The notes under the pieces are model-generated. The model saw only the letters and a program-made list of their open reading frames with translations, searched no databases and was not told the origin of the DNA. From IMG/VR virus record IMGVR_UViG_3300009146_000002, positions 1-64,000 of that record: a stretch of 64,000 bases of DNA; one strand, given 5' to 3'. The position numbers and the translations under genes were made by a program. This document shows, one piece after another, positions 19,065 through 36,710 of the stretch; within the stretch, counting starts at the first letter, position 1; every line of letters begins with the position of its first letter. Source of the stretch: a virus.

Positions 19065-22000
19065 ATGCCGCAGCAGCCCCAAGTCATCGCGGTTGACGAC
19101 CTGATCCGGCGCGAAGCGCTGGCCGCCGGCGTCCCGCCCGAGCTGGCCCTGGCCGTCGCCGAGCAGGAGTCGGGCTTCAACCCCACGGCGGTCAACCCGA
19201 CGCGCGTGGCCGGCGGCCAGCAGGCCACCGGGACGTTCCAGCTCCTGCCCTCCACGGCCAAGACGTTCGGGGTCGACCCGACCAACCCGGTCCAGAACAT
19301 CCAGGGCGGCGTGAAGTACCTCCGGCAGCTGATGGACCGCCACCAGGGCGACCTGTCGAAGGTGCTCGCCGAGTACGGCGGCGTGAAGACCGACACCACC
19401 TACGTGCCCCAGGTGCTGGGGCGGATCCCGAAGTTCGCGAGCGGTGGGAGCGCGCCCCCCGCAGCGGCCCCCGCCGCGGGCCCGGCGGCAGGCGCGGGGG
19501 GTCCGGGCGCCAGTCCGCCCCCGCCGCCCCCCGGGAGCTTCGCGGCCAATCATCCCTACCTGAACGAGATGGTGCAGGGGCTCGACCCGCACGAGCAGGG
19601 CGGGCGACGCAACATCGCCGGCGGCATCGGCGGGGTCATCGGCGGCGGGGTCGGCGCGATCATCGGGGGCGCTGGGGGGCTCGTGGCAGGCGCCCCGACC
19701 GGGCCGGGGGCCGTCGCCACGACGGGGGCGGGCGCGACCGGGGGGGCGGGCGTCGGGAGCGTCGCCGGGGCGGGCCTGTTCGGGGCGGCTGAGGATCTGC
19801 TCCTCGAACAGACGGGCATCGGGCCCTGGATCGGCCGGAACCTGCCGTGGGGCTCAGTCGATCAACCCGTGCAGACGCTCGGCCCCAACGCTACCGCCGG
19901 CGATCGGGCCTGGCAGGCGGCGGGGGTCGGCGGCGAGCAAGCCGTCTACGACGCGCTCGGCCAGGTCGTCTTCGCGCCGCTACGCTACGGCGCCCGCGCG
20001 GCGCTGGAGTCGCGCATCGGGCGGGCGGCCAGCGACGCGATCGGCGCCCGCAAGCAAGCCGCCGTCGCCGGGCTGCGGAACACGGTTGACCACCTGCGCG
20101 GCGCGCGTGAGGCGGCCACGGTCGCCAACGCGCAGACCAGCCGCTTGCTCGGGGACGACGTCGCGTCGCAGATCGCCGCGGCGCGCGAGGCCGCCCGCCT
20201 GCAGCTCGAAGGGGTCCGCACGGCGCAGGGCGAGGCGGTCACCGGGGCGATGGCCGACAAGCGGCAGGCGGTGCGCACCGCCGCCCGCACCGGTATGGAA
20301 GAGCGCAGCGCCGTGCAGGCCGAGGCGGCCGCCGCCGAAGCCCAGGCGCGTGCCGCCGCGGAGGCCGAAGCGCGGGTTGCCGCTGCCCAGGTGGAGGCGG
20401 CACGCGAGGCCGCCCGGGTCGCGGTCGAAAGCACCCGCACCGCCGCCGGCGAACAGGTCGCCGAGGCCAGCCTCGGCAAGCGGCAGGGTGTGCGCGAGGC
20501 GGTCAAGACCGGACAGGCCGCCCGTGAGGCGGCGAAGCGCGAAGCCGAGGCCCAGGTCGAGGCGACCCGCGCCGCCTACCAGGCGAAGCTGCAGCGCGAC
20601 GCCGAGGCGGGCGCGGTCGCCCGGCCGCCGCTCGGCACGCCCTCGGAAGTGGCCGCCGGGCGCGCGACCTCGGAGGTCTTCGAGGGGCCCGCGCGCGAGG
20701 CGCTCGACACGGCCGGCCGCGCGGTCAGCGAGGCGGCCGCGACCGGCCCGGTGCGCTCGGTCAGTGCCGTGCAGGCCGAAGCGCGCCGCATCCTGGAGAC
20801 GGAGCTGGCGCCGACGCAGGTCGGCCAGCCGGGACGCGGCGCCGCCGGGCCACGGCCGCGCATCGGCACGAAGCTGCGCGAGATCCTTGCGCGGATCGAC
20901 GACGCGCAACTGCAGGAGCTGGTCAAGCACCCGGCGGTGAAGGTGCTGAGCCGCATCCTGAACATGCCGGAGGCGCTCGACTTCGCGACGCTCCACCAGA
21001 TCGAGTCGCAGCTGCGTCGCTCGGTCCAAGGCAGCGGCGACAAGGTGATCAACTCCTACGTCACCGACACCACGCGCCACCTGGTCGGCCTCCTGCGCGA
21101 CACCTTGGCTGGCAACCTGGAGAAGGGCGCCGCCCCGCACCTGCCGTTCGAGGAAGCGACCAAGCGCTACGCCGACGTCGTGAAGCTCTTCACCGAGGGG
21201 CACGCCCAGCTCATCAAGGACGCCACGCACGCGCCCGAGAAGATCGTCCAGGCGCTCCGCCCCGACGACCCCACCCCGGCACGGATGCTCGTGCGCGTCC
21301 TGACCGAACAGGCCACCGAAGGCGGCGGCAAGGAAGGCCAGAAGGCCGGCGCCGAAGCGCTCCAGCGCATCCAGGACGCCTGGGTCCACCGGAACGTCCT
21401 GGAGGGCCCGCTCGACACGCTGGCCGAGCGCGTGGCCCAGCTGCGGCAGCGCCCCGAGTTCGTGAACGCGCTCTTCGACGCGACCCCCTACGGCAAGGGG
21501 CTCCTCGAACGCACCGAGCAGCTCGGCAAGGCGTTCAAGGAAGCGGCCGCGCAGGGCACCGAGCGCGTGGGCCAGGCCCGCGAGGCCGCGCGAACCGCCG
21601 TCGGCCAGGCGACCGAGTCCGGCGAGGCGGCCATCGCGGCCGCCCGTCGCAAGGCGGCCGAAGCGATCCGCAGCACGCGCAGCAGCGGACGCGCGGAGGT
21701 CAGCCGCGTGCGCGGCGAGAGTGCCGCCAAGCTCGCCGAGCGCGAAGCGGCGGTCGAGACGGCACGCACCGCCGGCAAGGCGCGCGTCGGGGCCGTCCGC
21801 GAGTCCGGCCGCGAAGGCATCCGCAAGGCGACCGAAGCTGGCGAGCGCACGGTCGCCGAGACGCGATCGAAGGCCGCCGCCGCCATCCGGGGCGAGCGCA
21901 CGGCTGGCCGCACGCGGGTCGCCGGTGAACGGGCGGCCGGCGCTACGCGGCAGGAAGCGCATCAGCAGACGGTCGAAGCGGCCCGCCTGCGCGCGAGCCA

Positions 22001-22418
22001 GGCCATCCGCCAGGCCGGCGCCGATGTCCGCTCGCGGATCGGCTCCCTCGGGAAGTCCGCCGTCGAGCAGGAGGAGCGCGCCTTCGCCACCTCGCCGCTC
22101 AACCCGAAGGTCGCGTCCCAGGGCCGGAGCGCCCAGGGCAAGCAGCTGGAGTGGGTCGCGCGCGCGGCGCTGGCCAGCGCCGGGGTCAACGCCTTCGGCC
22201 CGGCGGGCATCCTGCTCGGGACCGCCTTCCGCAGCGGGCGCAAGGTGCCCGAGGCCGAGCTACTGCGCTATGTCGTCCACTCGCCGGCGCTGACCCGCGG
22301 GGTGATCAAGGGCCTCTTCCACCCGGCGGCCAAGCTGGGCGCGAACACGGTGGGCGGCGTGGGCGTGCGGGGCGTGGGCGCGGCGCTGAAGCAGCCCCCG
22401 CCCGATCGGGACCGGTAG
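19065..22418 (+). CDS. Virion lytic transglycosylase / ejection protein
   Basis: 1117 residues. Residues ~12-130 form an SLT-type lytic transglycosylase domain: ELALAVAEQESGFNP carries the catalytic Glu (about E35), followed by GTFQLLPSTAKTFGVDP and GVKYLRQLMDRH. It would cleave peptidoglycan during DNA entry. Residues ~180-250 are a glycine-zipper-like membrane segment. From ~330 the protein is a long Ala/Arg/Glu coiled coil, with a second coiled block at ~830-1010. This is the only recognisable peptidoglycan-cleaving domain in the window. Confidence 0.75.
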   Translation: MPQQPQVIAVDDLIRREALAAGVPPELALAVAEQESGFNPTAVNPTRVAGGQQATGTFQLLPSTAKTFGVDPTNPVQNIQGGVKYLRQLMDRHQGDLSKVLAEYGGVKTDTTYVPQVLGRIPKFASGGSAPPAAAPAAGPAAGAGGPGASPPPPPPGSFAANHPYLNEMVQGLDPHEQGGRRNIAGGIGGVIGGGVGAIIGGAGGLVAGAPTGPGAVATTGAGATGGAGVGSVAGAGLFGAAEDLLLEQTGIGPWIGRNLPWGSVDQPVQTLGPNATAGDRAWQAAGVGGEQAVYDALGQVVFAPLRYGARAALESRIGRAASDAIGARKQAAVAGLRNTVDHLRGAREAATVANAQTSRLLGDDVASQIAAAREAARLQLEGVRTAQGEAVTGAMADKRQAVRTAARTGMEERSAVQAEAAAAEAQARAAAEAEARVAAAQVEAAREAARVAVESTRTAAGEQVAEASLGKRQGVREAVKTGQAAREAAKREAEAQVEATRAAYQAKLQRDAEAGAVARPPLGTPSEVAAGRATSEVFEGPAREALDTAGRAVSEAAATGPVRSVSAVQAEARRILETELAPTQVGQPGRGAAGPRPRIGTKLREILARIDDAQLQELVKHPAVKVLSRILNMPEALDFATLHQIESQLRRSVQGSGDKVINSYVTDTTRHLVGLLRDTLAGNLEKGAAPHLPFEEATKRYADVVKLFTEGHAQLIKDATHAPEKIVQALRPDDPTPARMLVRVLTEQATEGGGKEGQKAGAEALQRIQDAWVHRNVLEGPLDTLAERVAQLRQRPEFVNALFDATPYGKGLLERTEQLGKAFKEAAAQGTERVGQAREAARTAVGQATESGEAAIAAARRKAAEAIRSTRSSGRAEVSRVRGESAAKLAEREAAVETARTAGKARVGAVRESGREGIRKATEAGERTVAETRSKAAAAIRGERTAGRTRVAGERAAGATRQEAHQQTVEAARLRASQAIRQAGADVRSRIGSLGKSAVEQEERAFATSPLNPKVASQGRSAQGKQLEWVARAALASAGVNAFGPAGILLGTAFRSGRKVPEAELLRYVVHSPALTRGVIKGLFHPAAKLGANTVGGVGVRGVGAALKQPPPDRDR

Positions 22419-22427
22419 GAGTCGCGC

Positions 22428-25400
22428 ATGGCTGGCGAACCACAGAAGCCTGCTGCCCCGCCCCCGCCCGCCGGCGCGTCCTTCTGGCGCCGCGTCGCGC
22501 AGCTGGCCGGCGTCGATGACGAGATCGACGCAGTCTCCGCCGCGGTCATCGCGGCGCAGAACTGGGCGCAGTCGAAGCTCCCACCCCCCGCCGCGCTCCC
22601 GACGATCGCCGCCGACCTGCAGGCGCGCCAGGCCGCCCTCGACCAGCGCAAGCAGCAGCAGTGGGACGCGATCTCCGCGCCCGTCTCGCGCTTCTTCGGC
22701 TCCGCCCCGGTGCAGCAGGCGGGCCGCCACCTGAAAGAGAAGTACTACGACGTGCCGGCTGACGTCCAAGGCCTGAGCGAGCGGCTGCAGTCCACCGTCA
22801 CCGAGCGGGGCGACACGCGCCGGGCGGAGCTGGAGGCGGCCGGCCTCTCGGCGCTCGACCCGATGTTCGCGCTGCGTGACGAGTGGCTGCCGAACCTCGC
22901 CATCGGCACGGCGGCGGATAGCACCTCGGCGTTCGGCGCGGCGAGCAACCTGGACCTGCCGATCGGGCCAGCGGCCAAGGCGGTCGGCGGGGTGGCCTCG
23001 CACGCCGGGATGCTGCCGGGCTTCTTCTCGCGGGTCGAGCGGGTCGCGGCGAAGGTGCCGGCCAAGGGCATCCATCCGAACAAGCTGCTCTCAGAGCTGC
23101 GGTCGGGCGCCAGCCAGGAGGAGATCCTCTACCGGAAGATCAACGACCTGATCGCGGGGAAGGGCAACCAGCTCATCACGAAGGCGGAGCTGGACGCGCA
23201 CCTGGCGGCGCACCCGGCGCCGGAGATCGGGCAGACGGTGCTCGGCGGGCCGAACCCCGCACGTCTGTCGACCCTGCCTCCCGGCCACTCGATCCAGCCC
23301 CTCGCCACGGACCCGCTCACCCAGGGAGGCCAGGAGTACGCCTGGGTCGATCCGTCCGGGGTGGGGCGACGCTTGCACTCCAGCTCGCCGGAGGACGCCG
23401 CGCAGTTCGCGCTCGACATCCTTAACCGGGAACGGCCGCGCACCCTGCCGACCAGGCACGGCTCCTACACCCTCCCGGGCGGCGAGAACTACCGCGAGGC
23501 GCTCACTACCCTGCCGGTCGAGCAGCAGAAGCAGGGGATGTATCGCGCCCACATCACGCGCCCGTCCGATGGCCGGACCACCTGGAAGAGCGACGACTCG
23601 GGCGGCTTCGTCAGCGGCAGCCAGCTCAACCGTCTGCGGAGCGAGTACGAGCCGAAGGGGTACACGGTCCACGCCGAGGAGGTGCCGACCCCCGCGCCGG
23701 CCTACCAGTCCACTCACTGGGACCAGCCGAACGTCCTCCTCCACACCCGCAGCAACGAGCGCACCCTCGCGCCCGCGCCGATGCGCTCGATCCCGGAGAT
23801 CGAGCGGATCGTCCAGGACGTCGTCGGGGCGCAGTTCCCCGAGCACATCGCGTGGAACGGGCCGCACCAGGCCGTCCGCCAAGGCCTGATCAGTTACGAC
23901 GAGGCGGCACTCTACGGCCAGTCGCGCGGCTTCACTAACTACCCGCACGCACCGACCGGGCCACGCGGGCGCTTCATCGAGGAGGTGCAGAGCGACCTGC
24001 ACAAGCAGGGGGAGAAGGAGGGCTACCAGCCGCCAGGCGCCCGCCGAGCCGTCAATGAGACCCGGGCGCGACTCGACGAGGTGGACGCGCAACTGCGCGC
24101 CTACCGGTCCCGCTTCGATGCGGAGTACACCGCGGCGCATCCGCCCGACCCCCTGAGTTATGAGCAGTGGCTCGCCGACGAGATCCTCCCCGCCTACCGC
24201 GGGCCGGAACACGACGCGACGAACCGCCGGGTCTACAACTCGGACATCACCCAGGGGAAGCACTCGGCGCAGAACCGCCTCGCCCGGGAGCGTGCCGACG
24301 CCTACTACGGCGATCCGACGGCGCAGGCGCTGGCCGACCAGCAGCGGGACGCGCAGCTCGCGCACGACCAGGCCCGCATCGCCGCGTCGACGGGCGTCCC
24401 CGACGTGCCCTTCAAGGACACCTGGCCCGACCTGGCGCTGAAGCAGCAGCTGCTCGACGCGGCCCACCGCCAGGATCTCGACTGGCTGGGGCTCAGCGGG
24501 GCGCAGACACACGTCGATCGGTATGGCACCGAACGGCTGACCTGGGTGCCCGAGGGCCGTGGCTTCCGCGTCAAGTGGGAGCCCCAGGTGGGCGGCGACG
24601 CGCTCGGCGGGGATCAGGACATCGGCCAGGCGGCGCTGGCGCGGGGGCTGATCGAGAACACCGACGCCTATGTCGAGACCCCCGAGCAGCTCGATGCACT
24701 CCTCGGCTACGGGTCTGACCTGAAGCTAGAGAAGGCCTGGAAACGGATCCAGGCGTCGCCCGAGGGCGGTACCTACCTGCCCCGCAAGGAGGGCATGGAG
24801 GCCTTCTACGACCGGGCGCTGCCGGCCAAACTCCAGCGGCTCCTCAAGCCGTTCGGCGGCACGGTCGAGCGGGGTGCGGTCCCAGTTCAGAAGGACGTGG
24901 TCATCCCCAACGGCCGAGAGGTGTTCTACGTCACGGATGAAGAGGGGGCGCGGATCACGCCCTACTACGCTACCGAAGCGGCGGCGGAGAACTACATCCG
25001 CACGGGCAATCAGGGCGAGTGGCCGGAGGAGTTCAGCATGGCCTCCATGCGGCGCGACCTCCCCACCACGCAGACGGTCGACGAGCCCGCCTGGATCGCC
25101 CGCCTCTCCCCCGAGATGAAAGAGCGCATCCGGCAGCAGGGCTTCCCGCTGATGTCGTTCGTCCCGCCGGTCGCCGTCGGCGCAGGCGCAGCGGCCGCAG
25201 CCTCTGCCTCCGGCGAGGAGGGCGAGGGCTCGGGGCTCACCGCCGGCCTGATGGCCGCCGCGCCCTTCCTGCCCGGCGTCGGGGGCGACCTGGCCGGCCT
25301 GGCGCGCCGGGAGCGCCAGGGGCTGCGCGCCTTCCACGGCTCACCGCACGACTTCGATCGCTTCGACCTCTCGAAGCTCGGCACCGGGGAGGGGGCGCAG

Positions 25401-26291
25401 GCCTTCGGGCATGGGCTCTACTTCGCGGAGAACGAGGGTGTGGCGCGCGACTATCGCAACCGGCTCGCACGCGGCATCCTCGTCAACAAGGAACCGCCGC
25501 CGGATCCGCTGCGCAAGGCGCTGGAGTTTGTCGACGCGAACGTCCTGCGCACCGAGGGGCCGGAGCGGGCGCTGCAGCACGCGATTGCCCGGATGGAGGA
25601 GCAGTCGAAGTTCTACCGCTCGGCCTACATGGTGCCCGAGGACACCAGCGAGAACCTGTACGACCTGGCGGCGAAGCGACTGCGCACGGTCGACCCAGCG
25701 TCGCTCTCACAGCCCGGCAAGATGTACGAGGTCAACCTCGACGTCGACCCGCAACACCTGCTCAACTGGGACCGCCCGATCGCCGAGCAGTCCCGCCTGG
25801 TGCAGAACGCCGTGGTGCCGCACCTCCGCGACCTCGACCAGCACATGAAGGCCGAACGCGCCCGACAGCTCGCGCGCGGGACCGACGCCTTCGGCAAGCC
25901 GTTCAAGGCGGATCGGCTCGCGCGGCTGCAGGCGATGGTCCCGGACCCGATCGACCGTCCTGGGAGTGACGCCTACCGGATGATGGGCTTCGCCCCAGGC
26001 GACGCCCCGCTCAACCAGGAGGTGGGCTACCAGCGGTCTTCTGAGGCGCTGCGCAAGCTCGGCATCCCGGGCTTGAGCTACCTCGACGGGGCGTCCCGCG
26101 GCGCCGGGACCGGCACACGCAACTACGTGATGTTCGACGACGCGCGGGTCGACATCCTGCGCAAGTACGGCTTCCTCCCGCCGCTGGCCGGCGCAGCCGC
26201 CGCCGCGCAGTTCGGCCAGTTCAACGCGCCCGATCCCGCGGCGCCGCCGGTCCCGCCGCTCACGCCTCCCGATCGCGACAGCCCCTACTAA
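22428..26291 (+). CDS. Polyvalent virion protein with ADP-ribosyltransferase-like domain
   Basis: 1287 residues. Residues ~420-820 match the large polyvalent-protein module common in phages and conjugative elements (STHWDQPNVLLHTRSN, FIEEVQSDLHKQGEKEGY, VPFKDTWPDLALKQQLL, HVDRYGTERLTWVPEG, YLPRKEGMEAFYDRALP). From ~965 an ART-PolyVal-like domain follows: AFHGSPHDFDRFDLSKLGTG, GHGLYFAENEGVARDY, and later LSYLDGASRGAGTGTRNYVMFD. Such domains are thought to be delivered into the cell and modify host targets. Activity and target are inference. Confidence 0.7.
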   Translation: MAGEPQKPAAPPPPAGASFWRRVAQLAGVDDEIDAVSAAVIAAQNWAQSKLPPPAALPTIAADLQARQAALDQRKQQQWDAISAPVSRFFGSAPVQQAGRHLKEKYYDVPADVQGLSERLQSTVTERGDTRRAELEAAGLSALDPMFALRDEWLPNLAIGTAADSTSAFGAASNLDLPIGPAAKAVGGVASHAGMLPGFFSRVERVAAKVPAKGIHPNKLLSELRSGASQEEILYRKINDLIAGKGNQLITKAELDAHLAAHPAPEIGQTVLGGPNPARLSTLPPGHSIQPLATDPLTQGGQEYAWVDPSGVGRRLHSSSPEDAAQFALDILNRERPRTLPTRHGSYTLPGGENYREALTTLPVEQQKQGMYRAHITRPSDGRTTWKSDDSGGFVSGSQLNRLRSEYEPKGYTVHAEEVPTPAPAYQSTHWDQPNVLLHTRSNERTLAPAPMRSIPEIERIVQDVVGAQFPEHIAWNGPHQAVRQGLISYDEAALYGQSRGFTNYPHAPTGPRGRFIEEVQSDLHKQGEKEGYQPPGARRAVNETRARLDEVDAQLRAYRSRFDAEYTAAHPPDPLSYEQWLADEILPAYRGPEHDATNRRVYNSDITQGKHSAQNRLARERADAYYGDPTAQALADQQRDAQLAHDQARIAASTGVPDVPFKDTWPDLALKQQLLDAAHRQDLDWLGLSGAQTHVDRYGTERLTWVPEGRGFRVKWEPQVGGDALGGDQDIGQAALARGLIENTDAYVETPEQLDALLGYGSDLKLEKAWKRIQASPEGGTYLPRKEGMEAFYDRALPAKLQRLLKPFGGTVERGAVPVQKDVVIPNGREVFYVTDEEGARITPYYATEAAAENYIRTGNQGEWPEEFSMASMRRDLPTTQTVDEPAWIARLSPEMKERIRQQGFPLMSFVPPVAVGAGAAAAASASGEEGEGSGLTAGLMAAAPFLPGVGGDLAGLARRERQGLRAFHGSPHDFDRFDLSKLGTGEGAQAFGHGLYFAENEGVARDYRNRLARGILVNKEPPPDPLRKALEFVDANVLRTEGPERALQHAIARMEEQSKFYRSAYMVPEDTSENLYDLAAKRLRTVDPASLSQPGKMYEVNLDVDPQHLLNWDRPIAEQSRLVQNAVVPHLRDLDQHMKAERARQLARGTDAFGKPFKADRLARLQAMVPDPIDRPGSDAYRMMGFAPGDAPLNQEVGYQRSSEALRKLGIPGLSYLDGASRGAGTGTRNYVMFDDARVDILRKYGFLPPLAGAAAAAQFGQFNAPDPAAPPVPPLTPPDRDSPY

Positions 26292-27284: not shown

Positions 27285-30200
27285 TCACGCCAGCACCCGC
27301 CCCAGGTCGCTCCAGTCCTCATCGTCCTCGGCTTCCATCGCTTCCGCCACCCACTCGCTCTCGTACCCCGGCACCGCAATTTCCTCCATCGCCTGCCAGT
27401 CGTGCCCCGCCTTGGCCGCCACCCCGATCGCCACGCACTCCCCCGCCGGCCGCCCCCACCCGCCCGGCAGCGGCTGCTCGATCACCGGCCGCTGCATCTC
27501 CTGACAGACGATCTCCACCGTCCGGTCCCACGCCCGCTCCGGGATCTCCAAGAGCAAGCTGTCGTGGATCGGCGCGCGCAGCGGCGTCCGCCCGTAGTAC
27601 ACATTCCCGATGTAGCTCGGCGAGTCGCGCTCCGCAAACAGCCGCAGCATCGCTTCCTTCAGGATGCCCGACGCAATCGACTGCGGGTAGAACGCCAGCA
27701 CCCGCTTGCCGTCTTCCCCCAGGCTCACCCGGAACCACTGGCCGTTGATGCTCACGCACGGCGGCTCCTGCCCGACCTTCTGCGCCTTCGCCACCAGCCG
27801 GTAGTACTGCGTCGCGGTGAGCCGCTTGTAGCTGTAGACGCTCCAGAACCAGTGCTTGTACGCGAACGGGTGGTCGCCCGCGCCGCCGAGGTAGTGCTGC
27901 CGCTGCGCCTTGACCTGCGTCTCGGTCTGCCACTTCGACACGCCCGGCGCCATCCGCTCGAACACGCGCGCGAACTTCTCGGCGCTCGCCTGGGTCGGAA
28001 ACAGGTGCGGGAACTGCAGCACCATCCCAGCCACGGTGAGCCCGTAGCTCCTTCCGTGGATGTACCGCTTCGCCGGGTCGTACACCTCGGGGTACTTGTG
28101 CTTGGTCGCCTTGAAGAGCTTCCGCAGCTCCTCGTCGCTCGCCGCCGGATCGTACGGCAGCCCGATCGCATGGGTGACCAGCGCCGCGTGGACGCCCAGC
28201 TTCGCCAGCCGGTAGTACTCCGCGTCCCGCGCACACCAGCCGGTCTCGACCGCTTCGATCGCCGCGAAGTCGACCTCCAGCAGCCGGCAGCCCGGGCTGG
28301 CGACGATGCACTTCCTGAAGCCTGCGGCCAGCCCCGCCGGCCCGCCCTTATCAGCGACGACGTTCGTGATGTTCGGGTTCACGTAACTCAACCGCATCGT
28401 GCTCGGCTTGAACGTCGGCTGCGGGTGCAGGCGGTCCTCGCCGTCCAGCCGTCTTAACGTGCCGTCGACATACGTGCCCTGGATCTTCCCCACCGCGCGG
28501 TAGTCCAGCAGCGCCGCGTAGAACGGATCCTGCGTCGTGCGGCTGAGCCGCTCTAACGTCTCGCGGTTGGTGGACTCGGCGCTCGCGCTCTTCTTCGCCC
28601 GCCCGGGCTTGTGCTTCCGCCACTTGATGTAGGCGAGGACTTGGGGGACGGAGTCGGGGTTGAAGGGCTCCTGCCAGTACCACCGCTTGACGGTCGCAAC
28701 AACCAGATCAAGTCGAGGAGCTCCAGCCGCAGCTGCAGCAGCGGGAGCAGGGCTGCATCGGTGGCGGCGAGCGACCTCTGTAGCGCCGCAGCCCGTGCAG
28801 ACGAGGACTTCCCGGAGGACGAGCTTCTCGATGACGATGGCTTTCGCATACAGCTCCTGCTTGACCTCGGCGGTCGGCTTGCCCTTCCGTGGCAGCCCTC
28901 TCCGCGTGAACGCCGACGCCTTCACATGGAGCACGCTAGCCGCCGGCGCGCGCGTCAGCCCCGCCTTCGGGGTGAGCGGCGCGAGCTGCTCGGGCACGCA
29001 CGCCTGCAGCGCCTGGATCCGCTCCCGCGCCTTCTCGCTCAGCTCATCTCTGAACACGAGTAGCCGCTCGCGGTTGACCTTCAGGCCAATCAGCTGCGCG
29101 GGCCGCAGCACCTCGCTGAGCAGCGTGTGCGTGTGCCTGAGCGCCATCCGGTACTGCCCCTGCTGCTGCAGGTCGCCGACCACCCCGAACCCCACCCGGT
29201 GCGTCTGCAGCCCGTCGATCGCGCCGTACTTCTCCGGCTCATCCCCCGCCAGGTGTTTCCACGGCCCGTAGTTGCTGTAGAACGGCGCCCAGAACCCGAG
29301 CCCCCGCGGGACATCGCTCTGCAGGAAGTGCGCGAGCCACATCAGGTCGACGACCTTCCCCGAGTCCTCCTCGCGCATCAGCCCCGCGTGGACCTGCCGA
29401 CCGAAGTCGTACTCGCGGTTCCACATCCAGATGTGCCCGGGGCTGGCGTACAGCCGCTTCAGCTCATCGAGGTACGGGCCGGCGTGCGGCACGGTGATGC
29501 CCTCGTCGGGGTGACACGCCAGGTTGTGCCGCAGCAGCTGGTAGCTGACATCGTCCGCCGTGATCTCGCCTTCGTCCTTGCCGCCCGCCTTATCCGGCGT
29601 CTCGACGTCGCTGCTCAGCGGGTACGCCCCCGGATCCTGCTGGCGTGCCGCGACCACCTGATCGACCCACCGGCGGAACCACTCGACCGGCGGATCGATC
29701 ACCAGCGTGTGATCACTCGGCGGCTTCCCGCCGTCCCGCGCGGCCTCCGCGCGCTTCAGATCCCAGAGCACCGTGCCGATCATGTTCGTGGCGCCGCGCT
29801 GCAGGAAGCTCGGGTGATAGGTCGGCACCACCCAGAAGCGATCCGTCGGGTCGCGCATCACCGCGCCGTGGAAGTTCTGCACGAGGATCTTCTTCTTGTG
29901 CTCCAGGTGCATCACCCGCCGCAGCGCCGTCAGCCCCATCGGCACCACGACCGGATGCCGCTCGGCGAGCGTCTGCTCCAGGTACGGGCAGTGCGCCATC
30001 GCGTTGTAGTACCAGGGCGCGCGCTCGTCGAACCAGTCGTTCGGCGGGTGACAGCTCACCGTGTTGTGGATGCGGATCGCATCGCGCTGCCAGCCGAGCA
30101 GGTTGAGCAACCGCGTGAGCATCCCGCCCGCGTCGCCCATGAACGGGCGGCCGGTCATCGCTTCCACCACGCCGAGCGACTCGCCCACGAGCAAGAGCCA

Positions 30201-30287
30201 GCTGCCCGACGGGCCATCGGCCGGCGCGAAGCCGGTCCCCCGCTGCTCCAGCGCGCAGCCGCGGCAGGCGGGCGGCTTAGCGAGCAC
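27285..30287 (-). CDS. UDG-like domain fused to family A DNA polymerase
   Basis: 1000 residues from GTG 30287, which overlaps the upstream TAG; a longer frame would run into the upstream gene. Residues ~8-190 are a family 4/5 uracil-DNA glycosylase-like domain: CxxC plus two later Cys (SCHPP, HCPYL) as in 4Fe-4S UDGs, GESLG, GRPFMGDAGGML and THYHPS-like YHPS. An exonuclease-like LSSDVETP follows (~224). The polymerase palm has motif A LLEVDFAAIE (~671), motif B AKRYIHGRSYG (~737, His where Phe/Tyr is usual) and motif C IHDS instead of HDE (~907). A CxxC...HRC ribbon sits near 495. Main replicative polymerase of the phage by inference. Confidence 0.85.
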   Translation of the reverse strand: MLAKPPACRGCALEQRGTGFAPADGPSGSWLLLVGESLGVVEAMTGRPFMGDAGGMLTRLLNLLGWQRDAIRIHNTVSCHPPNDWFDERAPWYYNAMAHCPYLEQTLAERHPVVVPMGLTALRRVMHLEHKKKILVQNFHGAVMRDPTDRFWVVPTYHPSFLQRGATNMIGTVLWDLKRAEAARDGGKPPSDHTLVIDPPVEWFRRWVDQVVAARQQDPGAYPLSSDVETPDKAGGKDEGEITADDVSYQLLRHNLACHPDEGITVPHAGPYLDELKRLYASPGHIWMWNREYDFGRQVHAGLMREEDSGKVVDLMWLAHFLQSDVPRGLGFWAPFYSNYGPWKHLAGDEPEKYGAIDGLQTHRVGFGVVGDLQQQGQYRMALRHTHTLLSEVLRPAQLIGLKVNRERLLVFRDELSEKARERIQALQACVPEQLAPLTPKAGLTRAPAASVLHVKASAFTRRGLPRKGKPTAEVKQELYAKAIVIEKLVLREVLVCTGCGATEVARRHRCSPAPAAAAAAGAPRLDLVVATVKRWYWQEPFNPDSVPQVLAYIKWRKHKPGRAKKSASAESTNRETLERLSRTTQDPFYAALLDYRAVGKIQGTYVDGTLRRLDGEDRLHPQPTFKPSTMRLSYVNPNITNVVADKGGPAGLAAGFRKCIVASPGCRLLEVDFAAIEAVETGWCARDAEYYRLAKLGVHAALVTHAIGLPYDPAASDEELRKLFKATKHKYPEVYDPAKRYIHGRSYGLTVAGMVLQFPHLFPTQASAEKFARVFERMAPGVSKWQTETQVKAQRQHYLGGAGDHPFAYKHWFWSVYSYKRLTATQYYRLVAKAQKVGQEPPCVSINGQWFRVSLGEDGKRVLAFYPQSIASGILKEAMLRLFAERDSPSYIGNVYYGRTPLRAPIHDSLLLEIPERAWDRTVEIVCQEMQRPVIEQPLPGGWGRPAGECVAIGVAAKAGHDWQAMEEIAVPGYESEWVAEAMEAEDDEDWSDLGRVLA

Positions 30288-30691
30288 TACGTCGCCTCCG
30301 ACGTCGCGCGCTTCCACTCCACGATCCAGTCGTGCAGCTCGCTGTCGGTCACGGCCGGCTCGTTGAAGATCGGCAGGCCGAGCTGCTGGGCCGCGCGATA
30401 CTCCGCGCTCGCGCCCTGGCTGTACTGCCACTTGCCCATCATCAGGATCGCGTCGCTCCGCCGCAGCAGCTCCAGATCCCCCTGCAGCCAGACCTCATCG
30501 GGGCACTCGCCGTCGAACAACCCCGTGTTGCTGTGCGGGCACAGCGCCACCGCGCCCATCTTCCACACGGCGAGCGCGACCTCCTGCGCGGCGCGGACAT
30601 TCGCGAGCACCTGCCACGGCGTGGGGGCGCGGTACGGACCCGCGATGTAGATGACCGGCAGGATCACCGGTGTGGGCTGAAGCGCAGACAT
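30287..30691 (-). CDS. DUF4406 / nucleoside deoxyribosyltransferase-like protein
   Basis: 134 residues. VIYIAGPYRAPTPWQVLANV, ALAVWKMGAVALCPHSNTG, RRSDAILMMGKW and SQGASAEYRAAQQLGLPIF follow the Rossmann-like pattern of the DUF4406/nucleoside 2-deoxyribosyltransferase superfamily. Phage members are often near nucleotide or DNA-modification genes. It sits between a DNA methyltransferase-like gene and the polymerase, overlapping both, so it is co-translated with replication functions. Enzymatic activity not established. Confidence 0.65.
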   Translation of the reverse strand: MSALQPTPVILPVIYIAGPYRAPTPWQVLANVRAAQEVALAVWKMGAVALCPHSNTGLFDGECPDEVWLQGDLELLRRSDAILMMGKWQYSQGASAEYRAAQQLGLPIFNEPAVTDSELHDWIVEWKRATSEAT

Positions 30692-31212
30692 GGGCGGCCT
30701 CCTTCGCGATACACAATCCAGCAGCAGGTGACGCTGTCGGTCTGGCGCTTGCCCGCGTCGTTCAACCGGAACGAGTAGCGCGGCAGCACGATCAGATCGG
30801 TCGGCGGATGCGCGGCCCAGAAGGCGGCGCGTGTCAGCGTGGGTTCGAGGAAGCTCAGCCGGGCGAGGAAGGCGACGTTGCGGGAGTTCGCGAGCGCGTG
30901 CTGCAGGATCACCAGCTCATCGCTGAAGGGCGGGTTGGTGATCGTCCAGTCGACGCGGAAGTCGTCATCGGGGTCGGCGTGCGCGAACGGCCAGGCGCGC
31001 TCCGATCGCGCGTCCTCGTGGATCGTCGCGGCACACTGCGGATCGAGATCGTTGGTCGAGAGGTGCCCCGCGCCGGTGAGGAACTGCGCGATGTGCCACT
31101 TGCCGACACACGGCTCGTAGACCGTGAGCCCGGTGAGCGGCCCGATCAGATCGAGCAGCGGCTGCACATAGTGGGGCGGCGTTTCATATTGGTCGAGCGG
31201 CCGGCGCGGCAT
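30664..31212 (-). CDS. DNA (adenine-N6) methyltransferase-like protein
   Basis: 182 residues. LTVYEPCVGKWHIAQFL corresponds to SAM-binding motif I (a variant lacking the usual GxG) and DWTITNPPFS is the NPPF catalytic motif of adenine/amino methyltransferases. Short for a stand-alone enzyme with its own recognition domain, so specificity is uncertain. It may modify phage DNA against restriction. TGATG overlap with the upstream gene, 28-bp overlap with the downstream one. Confidence 0.65.
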   Translation of the reverse strand: MPRRPLDQYETPPHYVQPLLDLIGPLTGLTVYEPCVGKWHIAQFLTGAGHLSTNDLDPQCAATIHEDARSERAWPFAHADPDDDFRVDWTITNPPFSDELVILQHALANSRNVAFLARLSFLEPTLTRAAFWAAHPPTDLIVLPRYSFRLNDAGKRQTDSVTCCWIVYREGGRPCLRFSPHR

Positions 31213-31511
31213 CAGCGCCGCCCTTCGTACCGCCGCGCGCGCCAGCCGTCGTCCCGCCCGTCGCGCTTGCTCGCCTCGATGTTCCCCACCGCCCGCTGCT
31301 GCGCCTCACTCACCCGCCGCGTCTTCAGCACCGTGTCGCGGATGCCGCCGAGCGTGCCGAAGGCCCAGTCGTACTCGCCGCTCGCGAGCAGCGCCTCGAT
31401 CACGCCGACGAATTGGTACCAGTGCTGGTTCGGATCCAGGGCTTCCACCTGGCGCTCAATGAGTTGATCTAACTCGTCGAGCTTTCGGAGATCCTCGATG
31501 CGTTTGCCCAC
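31212..31511 (-). CDS. Small helical phage protein of unknown function
   Basis: 99 residues, largely helical and charged (RIEDLRKLDELDQLIERQVEAL, YQFVGVIEALLASGEYDWAFGTL, QQRAVGNIEASKRDG). It opens the operon leading to the methyltransferase and polymerase, and couples to the methyltransferase by TGATG. I recognise the pattern from other phages but know no function. Confidence 0.6.
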   Translation of the reverse strand: MGKRIEDLRKLDELDQLIERQVEALDPNQHWYQFVGVIEALLASGEYDWAFGTLGGIRDTVLKTRRVSEAQQRAVGNIEASKRDGRDDGWRARRYEGRR

Positions 31512-31715: not shown

Positions 31716-31792
31716 GCCGACGTAGCTCAGTTTGGTAGAGCACCGCACTCGTAATGCGGGGGTCACCAGTTCGATCCTGGTCGTCGGCTCCA
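31716..31792 (+). tRNA. tRNA-Thr (CGU anticodon), CCA encoded
   Basis: Complete cloverleaf. Acceptor arms GCCGACG/CGTCGGC pair fully, discriminator T, CCA encoded. D arm GCTC...GAGC; anticodon stem CCGCA/TGCGG with loop CTCGTAA, anticodon CGT; T arm ACCAG TTCGATC CTGGT. It reads ACG Thr codons. It ends 13 bp from the 3' end of the convergent integrase gene, so it probably contains or reconstitutes the bacterial attachment site as well as being a functional tRNA. Confidence 0.95.
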
Positions 31793-34514: not shown

Positions 34515-35141
34515 TCACGCCCCGGCCACATCGGGCGACTCGAAGTCGAAGCAGCCGGGCACCGGCCCTTCGCGGTAGCCCTGACCGCGCACGGGCGCGA
34601 GGATCTCCAGCGTGGGATGGAGCGTGACGCACTGGTAACACGGCCCGTGGCCCAGATCCTCGATCGGCGAGGCGAGCACCTCCGCGTGGGTCGTCCAGCC
34701 GGCGACGGTGAAGACCAGCCAGCCGCGCGTGGTCGGCACGCCGTCGCCGGTCAGCACGAGGTAGAGGTCGGGAGCCTCCTTCTTCGCCTTCACGCGCGCC
34801 GCTTCCCGCGCGCAGTCCAGCTTGATGACGCCGTGGGGGTGGTCCCACACGACGTTGAGGAGATCGCCGCTCGGCAGCCGCAGGTTGTAGTGGTAGTAGC
34901 TGTCGAACTGGATCATCGGGCAGACATTCGCCGCGACGGCCACGGCGGTCTCCACCAGGCCGCCGCCGCGGTCGTTTCCCAGGATTGCGAAGTGATCCTG
35001 AATGACGCGCGGCCGGTAGCCGCGCGCCCGATTGATCCCGTAACGGTAGTCGCCGATCAGGCAGCCGAAGGGTTGCTGGCGTTCGCTGAGCCAGATCCGC
35101 TGGCCGCGTGTGAACGACACCGCCACCTTCAGGTCGATCAC
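34515..35141 (-). CDS. Conserved-looking early protein of unknown function
   Basis: GTG 35141 overlaps the helicase stop (TGTGA), giving 208 residues. It contains DHFAILGNDRGGGLVETAVAV, FDSYYHYNLRLPSGD, HGVIKLDCAREAARVKAKKE and GWLVFTVAGWTTH. The IKLD...KAKKE stretch hints at a nuclease-like fold but no complete PD-(D/E)XK triad is convincing. Sits between helicase and methyltransferase-like genes. Confidence 0.5.
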   Translation of the reverse strand: MIDLKVAVSFTRGQRIWLSERQQPFGCLIGDYRYGINRARGYRPRVIQDHFAILGNDRGGGLVETAVAVAANVCPMIQFDSYYHYNLRLPSGDLLNVVWDHPHGVIKLDCAREAARVKAKKEAPDLYLVLTGDGVPTTRGWLVFTVAGWTTHAEVLASPIEDLGHGPCYQCVTLHPTLEILAPVRGQGYREGPVPGCFDFESPDVAGA

Positions 35142-36142
35142 AGCCACGCCTTCAGCCGCGGATCGGTCGTACACCGCTCGATGATCGCCGCCCGGCTCCC
35201 CACCAGCCGCAGCCCCGCCGCGGTGCGACTGCGGCTCAGCGCGACATACATCATCCCGGGCGACTTGAAGAAGGCGTCCCGGACGTTGACCTGCACCTTA
35301 TCCAGGCTCAGCCCCTGGCTCTTATGAACCGTACTTGCATATGCAATTCTCAACGGCATGTAGGTGATCTCGCCGGCAATCTCCCACCGCTCCTCGATGC
35401 GGTCCTCGTGCCCCGCCGCGCGCAGCTCCTTCCGCCGCGTGCTATCGGCCGGCAGCTTCACCTTCCGCGACACCGGGATCACAAACTCGACCAGGCCCGT
35501 CCGCTGCAGCCGCACGTAGGCCCCCCGCACCCGCCGCTCGTGCCCCTTGCCGTCCACGACGTAGTCGTCGCCGACGTCTTCCAGCGTGCCGAGGTCGCCG
35601 TTCACATAGGTGAGCGCGCCGGCCTCGCGGCGGTTGGCGAGGATCATCACCAGCGCCCCTTGCTTGAGCGGCAGCTCCTGGGGGATGCCCCAGGTCGACG
35701 GCGGCTTGTCGGGATTGCCCCACTCGCTGCGCTGCTTGCCCCAGCGGGAGGAGCTGAAGGTCACCGGCGCGCCCGGCAGCCGCGAGAGCCGCAGCGCGTT
35801 GTAGCGGTCGACGCTCTCGTTCTTCGCGTGGATGGTCGGCCCCTCGAAGTGGTCGTCGGTCTCAGTCGCGATGGCGTTGCGTGCGAGGAAGTAGTCGGCG
35901 ACCTGCTCCCCCTGGCCCGCGCGGGCCGCGCGCAGCATCGCGATGAACTCGGGATCGGACTGCCGGCGGATCTCGGTGAGGGTGATCGTGTTGGCCTGGA
36001 ACCGCCCCCACTCGCTCGCCTCAAACGCATAGGTCGCCTTCACCGGCGACAGCTGGCAGAAGTCCCCGACCAGCGTCAGGCCCATCGCTGGCGGCCCGCT
36101 CTCACCCTCATCAGCGTCCTTGTCCTTCTTGGTCGACAGCAC
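35138..36142 (-). CDS. Pif1/RecD-like helicase, C-terminal part in a separate frame
   Basis: 334 codons from GTG 36142. GLTLVGDFCQLSPVKATY is helicase motif III, LTEIRRQ motif IV, and YASTVHKSQGLSLDKVQV with MYVALSRS motifs V-VI of SF1B helicases. It lacks the Walker A and B motifs, which lie in the overlapping upstream frame (36111-36710), so the two form one helicase separated by a frameshift or two interacting chains. The A-Y-A-S codons at 35336-35347 are GCA TAT GCA AGT, A/T-ending and unlike the rest. Confidence 0.8.
   Translation of the reverse strand: MLSTKKDKDADEGESGPPAMGLTLVGDFCQLSPVKATYAFEASEWGRFQANTITLTEIRRQSDPEFIAMLRAARAGQGEQVADYFLARNAIATETDDHFEGPTIHAKNESVDRYNALRLSRLPGAPVTFSSSRWGKQRSEWGNPDKPPSTWGIPQELPLKQGALVMILANRREAGALTYVNGDLGTLEDVGDDYVVDGKGHERRVRGAYVRLQRTGLVEFVIPVSRKVKLPADSTRRKELRAAGHEDRIEERWEIAGEITYMPLRIAYASTVHKSQGLSLDKVQVNVRDAFFKSPGMMYVALSRSRTAAGLRLVGSRAAIIERCTTDPRLKAWL
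35337..35344. promoter_or_regulatory. Intragenic GCATATGC palindrome in the helicase
   Basis: Exact copy in the codons for A-Y-A of helicase motif V. The minus-strand context TTGAGAATTGCATATGCAAG has a weak -35-like hexamer, as in the promoter copies, but no good -10. Confidence 0.35.
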
Positions 36143-36710
36143 ATAGCCGGCTGTTGACCTCCTCGATCGCCTTCACGATGAAGTCGAGCTGATCGCCGGC
36201 AAGCATCGACACCTCGTCGAGCACCAGCCGGCGCACGCCCATCTTCCAGAGCTTGCCGAGCTTCGCGCTGAGGAAGCCGTTGAGGTAGCTCTCCTGCAGG
36301 CTGGCCGTGTCGAAGTACCCGAGGACCGCGTTGATCGTCTCGCCGCCGAGGTTGATCGCCGCGATGCCGGTGGTGGCGCAGAGCAGCAGCCCGCGCTCCT
36401 CCTCGGCCCAGGCCTTGGTGTAGAAGGTCTTGCCGCTGCCGGCCGCGCCCAGCAGGCAGGAGAACGGCTGGCGGAGCGTGGCGCGGATCGGGTCGGTGGT
36501 CTCCGGCGGCAGAGGCTCGGGCGTCGCAGCGGCGGTGGCGGCGCGGGCGTCGACGATCGCGTCGTGCCGCGCCTCCCGTGCCAGCGCCTCGTCGAACATC
36601 GCCATCTGCGCCGCGTCGGTCATGTCGTCGACGGCCTCCTTGATCGCCTCGTCGACCAGGTCATCGCCGAAGCGGAGGGTGCGATCGGTGGGGGTGCGTT
36701 GGCGGATCAT
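36111..36710 (-). CDS. Pif1/RecD-like helicase, N-terminal part
   Basis: 199 residues from ATG 36710 with GGAG upstream. LLGAAGSGKTFYTKAWAEEE is Walker A (~86-95) and VRRLVLDEVSMLAGDQLDF is motif II (~160-175). The frame then continues AIEEVNS and ends out of helicase context at 36111. The expected continuation, motif III onward, is in the +1 frame from about 36150. The whole would be a ~530-residue DNA helicase for replication or recombination. Confidence 0.8.
   Translation of the reverse strand: MIRQRTPTDRTLRFGDDLVDEAIKEAVDDMTDAAQMAMFDEALAREARHDAIVDARAATAAATPEPLPPETTDPIRATLRQPFSCLLGAAGSGKTFYTKAWAEEERGLLLCATTGIAAINLGGETINAVLGYFDTASLQESYLNGFLSAKLGKLWKMGVRRLVLDEVSMLAGDQLDFIVKAIEEVNSRLCAVDQEGQGR

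Follow-up and report, generated by a model that had tools for sequence, protein, structure and literature searches.

DNA polymerases fused to a uracil-DNA glycosylase (UDG) domain are common in phages. The architecture in which a UDG domain, an exonuclease and a family A DNA polymerase (PolA) follow each other on a single chain is already established in phages such as SPO1 gp31, phiLo and others. In Bacillus phage SPO1 gp31 and in LysYB1, both from the Herelleviridae, the order is UDG (PF03167), exonuclease (PF01612) and PolA. The polymerase of the Thermus phage phiLo (PDB 9qhs, released 2026-03, "with modified template") has about 1140-1180 aa, carries the same N-terminal UDG followed by the exonuclease on one chain, and possesses intact CxxC, GEAPG, TN and HPS..R motifs in its gene. 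A tblastn search with the UDG and exonuclease parts as the query found 193 phage records, 81 of which covered at least 80% of the query, and a number of phage polymerases in BFVD matched the model of these parts across both domains. In a literature search of partial coverage, no paper testing the role of the UDG part was found, and prior work on the function of UDG-PolA fusions or on His762 may exist. The family 4 UDGs TM0511 (1vk2), TthUDGa (1ui0) and StoUDG (4zbx), as well as UdgX, share the fold (Z 22-25), the four Cys and the Glu, Asn, His and Arg positions with the domain described here, but they are stand-alone enzymes with Pro in motif A. The vaccinia D4/A20/E9 holoenzyme offers the closest working analogy, which is functional only and not one of descent; it consists of separate subunits with a family B polymerase, and D4 belongs to another UDG family than the present domain. 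In this holoenzyme, as in the present chain, the replicative polymerase of the virus and a UDG are physically coupled; D4 belongs to the processivity factor of the polymerase and connects synthesis to base excision repair (PMC5682278).

The chain studied here is encoded in the window, i.e., the whole stretch of 64,000 nucleotides that was analysed. The virus record has 69.7 kb, a GC content of 70% and an integrase beside a tRNA-Thr; the phage is temperate-looking because it bears this integrase. The gene and its neighbours were located as follows.

27285-30287, minus strand: gene for the UDG, 3'-5' exonuclease and family A DNA polymerase chain, 1000 aa, one open frame
30287-30691, minus strand: DUF4406 or nucleoside 2-deoxyribosyltransferase-like gene (PF14359, phrog_355)
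30664-31212, minus strand: phage DNA methyltransferase-like gene (phrog_799)
31212-31511, minus strand: 99-aa gene without family match, near the polymerase in 20/33 related loci
31716-31792, plus strand: tRNA-Thr(CGT) next to the integrase, likely an attachment site or remnant

The coordinates given in the initial annotation were correct. The polymerase gene lies on the minus strand, starts with GTG (30287-30285) and ends at 27285; in the sequence TAGTG, its start codon overlaps the TAG with which the upstream DUF4406 gene terminates. The start point was supported by the relatives, whose readings begin a few codons or less from the GTG position. The 1000 residues were read without internal stop or frameshift; the possibility of separate proteins produced through an internal start or frameshift was thus not borne out by this single open reading frame. 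When the host was sought in genome_contigs, the 3' 53 nt of the tRNA-Thr gave no exact match and the family alignment gave no relative. Elsewhere in the window, a Dda-like helicase lies in two frames on the minus strand (36111-36710 and 35138-36142, overlapping at 36111-36142). By coordinates, its halves share one frame in the related loci L002, L005 and L011, and the split in the window may be a frameshift or a sequence error. In addition, positions 19065-26291 (plus strand) hold two very large proteins of 1117 and 1287 aa, the latter with a stretch resembling, by eye only, a phage ADP-ribosyltransferase-like polyvalent protein.

The single chain has three folds with conserved catalytic residues, and purifying selection acts on its UDG domain. 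In Pfam, the UDG family PF03167 matched residues 25-167 (E = 1.5e-16; 61.2 bits against a curated cut-off of 24.3) and DNA_pol_A PF00476 matched residues 539-799 (E = 5.9e-23, above the curated cut-off), while the PHROGs label for the 1000-aa chain was DNA polymerase. Pfam, PDB and structure comparisons agreed on a UDG, an exonuclease and a PolA on one chain, as the initial annotation had claimed, and the domain order is of the SPO1 type. When IMG/VR was scanned twice, 32 further distinct family members were obtained from 33 loci, two of which had the same sequence, with UDG identities of 36-88%; a UDG-only profile was too variable to serve in the locus search. The number of members readable at each position was 32 for the N-terminal UDG sites, 33 for H158 and R164, and 31 for the polymerase sites. 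The dN/dS of the UDG, obtained by a simple counting method, was similar to that of the exonuclease and the palm, and it was higher in the thumb insertion. Together with the conserved sites, this indicates that the UDG domain is a maintained part of the enzyme.

The UDG domain and its motifs, all on the minus strand, were assigned as follows.

29730-30284, minus strand: UDG domain, residues 2-186, with a family-4-type fold (PF03167; 1vk2/1l9g, E about 1e-17; model)
30255-30266, minus strand: C8-x2-C11, the first two predicted Fe-S ligands, both in 32/32 readable members
30171-30185, minus strand: UDG motif A, G35-E36-S-L-G39, with E36 as the catalytic-type Glu (family 4: GE(A/G)PG)
30063-30065, minus strand: N75, the uracil-recognition Asn position, in 32/32 readable members
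30053-30051, minus strand: C79, predicted Fe-S ligand, in 29/32 readable members
29990-29988, minus strand: C100, predicted Fe-S ligand, in 32/32 readable members
29796-29816, minus strand: UDG motif B, H158-PSFLQ-R164, with H158 and R164 in 33/33 members

In a sequence comparison with the PDB, the N-terminus matched family-4 UDGs best (E about 1e-17). Residues 1-400, covering the UDG and the exonuclease, were modelled with 36 sequences, and this model had a pLDDT of 92.8 and a pTM of 0.88. In this model, residues 2-186 superposed on 1vk2 over 175 residues (Z 24.6, rmsd 2.0), and other family-4 UDGs also matched. Membership in the UDG superfamily is therefore seen both in the PF03167 score and in the alpha/beta fold, and a UDG core of the family-4 type is present in the predicted fold, a point that the initial annotation had named for checking. 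The four Cys that it had reported (C8, C11, C79 and C100) were confirmed; by alignment and conservation they are placed for a predicted [4Fe-4S] cluster, as in family 4. At least three of them were present in every readable member, and C79 with its loop is gone in three relatives (L031, L032 and L038). The positions critical in UdgX and family 4 (PMC10359453) are those conserved here, namely E36, E42, N75, H158, R164 and the Cys, and both E36 and E42 were found in 32/32 readable members. Across 32-33 members, with UDG identities as low as about 35-45%, the five non-Cys residues were invariant, these counts being derived from related sequences.

The motif A of family 4 is GE(A/G)PG (PMC10359453), whereas that of the window copy is GESLG, in which the Glu is retained and the Pro is replaced by Leu. 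Among 32 members, this position was Leu in 19, Ala in 5 and Pro in 8. Since the Glu is kept and the Pro is replaced, the domain was named family-4-like. Compared with the family 4 motif B, HPS(S/A)(L/V)(L/V)R, the HPSFLQR of the window has the same H, P, S and R, but the middle residues differ. UdgX is characterized by a KRRIH R-loop, a GEQPG motif A and Gln53; the window chain has neither KRRIH nor Gln53, and its loop is CHPPND. The fused domain is the only UDG-family match in the window genome.

Several related genes were interrupted. In L004 (1141-1953), and at the same site in L005, an in-frame intein of 271 aa (PF14890, E = 7.8e-10) lies exactly before C79, so that its +1 residue is the Fe-S cysteine. 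An intein-like stretch of 253 aa follows residue 283 of the reading in L033, at the exonuclease II motif (WN|C...HN|CQYDF), and L051 has an intein-like insertion near the PolA R668 motif (site GRLA|C...HN|CREPN). In L037 (9947-10030), L036 (9941-10817) and L015 (7114-9521), the polymerase gene is broken at an identical point just before motif A. The break in L037 consists of two overlapping ORFs, and the breaks in L036 and L015 hold other ORFs, of which, by eye, one is NADAR-like and one, in L015, is HNH nuclease-like. Splits also occur in the polymerase genes of L017 and L058. A search of L015 against Rfam showed no intron. It is possible that the loci with broken genes encode two-piece family A polymerases.

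The exonuclease and polymerase features were assigned as follows.

29091-29714, minus strand: 3'-5' exonuclease, residues 192-399, with D227, E229, N290, D294, Y354 and D358
28755-28799, minus strand: C497-x2-C500...H509-x-C511 cluster at the thumb-palm junction, predicted metal site, in 33/33 members
27408-28670, minus strand: family A palm/fingers, residues 540-960 (PF00476; Foldseek to Pol I structures)
28254-28283, minus strand: motif A, LLEVD673FAAIE678, with D673 and E678 in 31/31 readable members
28041-28070, minus strand: motif B, K740-RYI-H744-GRSYG, with H744 at the 762 position
27558-27566, minus strand: motif C, H908-D909-S910

For residues 192-399 of the model, the structural matches were the 3'-5' exonuclease domains found in RNase D and PolA-type enzymes (Z about 17-18). 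The motifs D227xE229, N290xxxD294 and Y354xxxD358, together with this fold, are those of a DEDDy proofreading exonuclease, and D227, E229, D294, Y354 and D358 were invariant among the members. The full-length model was built from 15 sequences and had a pLDDT of 55.8; only its polymerase part was used, which matched Pol I structures in Foldseek (E about 1e-14), and the UDG and exonuclease were remodelled with the 36 sequences mentioned above. Besides the PF00476 match, equivalents of R668, D705, E710, K758 and D882 are present, as in family A polymerases. R632, D673, E678 and K740 occurred in 31/31 readable members, and the exonuclease and polymerase catalytic residues were retained across the members with few exceptions.

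The residue at the Phe/Tyr762 position is His in the window (H744), in agreement with the initial annotation. Among 31 readable members, it was His in 24, Tyr in 5 and Asn in 2. Because the five members with Tyr group in a single nested clade, His seems to be the older state in this family. Published viral PolA classes are defined by Phe, Tyr or Leu at residue 762, and His744 falls in none of them. In their virome screen, Keown et al. 2022 retained sequences with F, L or Y at this position and no others (PMC9069017), and thus the His762 branch would have been filtered out.

Compared with the known fusions, the window chain is similar in architecture and different in several residues. The Herelleviridae SPO1, EalM132 and LysYB1 have altered UDG catalytic positions (e.g., QENP, HPN) and Phe at 762, and SPO1 and EalM132 have no CxxC. 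The ctfzr933/L045-type and vir526 polymerases have the architecture of the window, intact Cys and a GEAPG motif, but their UDG identity to the window is about 26-28%, with Phe at 762 and no C-C-H-C insertion. The phiLo polymerase shows only remote sequence similarity to the window and retains the motif A Pro. The HDS of motif C had been regarded as unusual, but it also occurs in SPO1, LysYB1, ctfzr933 and ctLwi270, while vir526 has HDQ. SPO1 and LysYB1 lack the C-C-H-C insertion; SPO1-type and other reference fusions have a gap where the cluster 497-511 lies. The real departures from known fusions are His762, the replacement of the Pro in UDG motif A by Leu, and the invariant C-C-H-C insertion. 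Among other fused polymerases selected by hand, one or more of the catalytic positions of the UDG were lost and the domain kept in SPO1, EalM132, LysYB1, Serbin, YenP744, Lebethron, Huwbert, KimJongPhill, UF_RH6 and VS-ABTNL-3, and they were largely kept in vir526, ctfzr933, L045, L051, ctLwi270, StAshley, RHph_Y65 and phiLo. The domain persists where its catalytic positions are lost, and it is therefore useful without excision in some phages.

On balance, we consider it fairly probable that the chain replicates the phage DNA and that the family-4-like uracil glycosylase tethered to it, probably an active one, guards the fork against uracil. The phage is soil-type and belongs to a temperate-looking, GC-rich lineage of about 70 kb, in which the chain would be the replicative polymerase with proofreading. 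Its UDG domain, with a predicted [4Fe-4S] cluster, would excise, or at least capture, uracil in DNA at the fork or close to it. In this way, uracil that arises when cytosine is deaminated or dUTP is incorporated would be removed from the 70% GC genome of a phage which itself has no recognisable dUTPase, and the abasic site left by excision may be handed to host repair. An active UDG is favoured by the presence of E36, E42, N75, H158 and R164 in every readable member, by a UDG dN/dS close to that of the exonuclease and palm, and by phiLo (9qhs), which has the same domain order and intact motifs. The GESLG of the window copy, the loss of C79 and its loop in three relatives and the many fused phage polymerases that retain a catalytically altered domain count against it. 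Moreover, the benefit of active excision at the fork is not obvious, since a single-stranded template from which uracil has been removed would carry an abasic block. By analogy with vaccinia D4, the UDG domain likely also contributes to holding the DNA (processivity).

The UDG fold might instead be kept mainly as a DNA-holding module, with excision weak or irrelevant. The SPO1-type polymerases with lost catalytic positions, the Leu in motif A of the window and the role of vaccinia D4 as a processivity subunit (PMC5682278) would all suit this explanation. However, a pure clamp needs none of the five residues that are invariant over 32-33 members, and we regard the explanation as unlikely, though still the strongest of the alternatives. 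Uracil capture without excision is known in another setting, as archaeal family B polymerases have a uracil pocket for the read-ahead capture of template uracil. A similar sensor, in which the UDG pocket captures template uracil and stalls synthesis, would be in keeping with the conservation of the uracil-contact positions N75 and H158 and with the direct tethering of the UDG domain to the exonuclease. Mere capture would tolerate changes of E36, but this general catalytic position is invariant too, which makes a sensor quite improbable. A probably active glycosylase tethered to the polymerase remains the preferred reading.

From the neighbouring genes, the initial annotation had also put forward a modified-base hypothesis, in which the adjacent DUF4406 enzyme and methylase would help to make modified bases and the fusion would act on such DNA. 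In the window, both genes lie next to the polymerase, and some other fusions sit by hydroxymethylase, ThyA and deaminase genes or by 7-deazaguanine genes. However, DUF4406 was near the polymerase in only 5/33 related loci and the methylase in 2/33, these counts being lower bounds because some loci are cut by contig ends, and DUF4406 occurred in 2/15 whole near-70-kb records. The most conserved upstream neighbour was the 99-aa gene at 31212-31511. No recognisable dUTPase (two families), thymidylate synthase (ThyA) or cytidine/dCMP deaminase was found in the 15 near-70-kb records, in a search whose controls were good for three of the four families and weak for dUTPase_2. These results argue against a conserved modified-base pathway, and we consider this explanation very improbable. 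Among other fusions, the UDG-PolA genes of L020, L053, L054, L055 and L057 adjoin thymidylate synthase, pyrimidine hydroxymethylase, dCMP deaminase or dUTPase genes; in most of them the UDG catalytic residues are changed, and in ctfzr933 (L020) they are unchanged. A rule by which a hydroxymethylase in the phage goes with the loss of UDG catalysis was rejected, since ctfzr933 has both a hydroxymethylase and intact UDG motifs. Overall, the earlier interpretation held for the three-domain chain, the four-Cys UDG and His762, and was not supported for the HDS motif, the novelty of the fusion, given SPO1 gp31, phiLo and many other phage polymerases, and the modified bases.

It is conceivable, but rather doubtful, that the His762 polymerase and the intact UDG form one uracil-excluding replicase, in which His would alter nucleotide discrimination and the UDG would remove uracil as it is met, in a distinct lineage missed by surveys keeping only F, Y or L. 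The His762 branch would have dropped out of at least one published PolA survey through its filter. A lineage with all catalytic UDG residues under strong selection contrasts with the phages whose same domain has lost them. With the intact lineage beside the degenerate ones, the roles of excision and DNA holding may therefore be told apart by single-residue changes.
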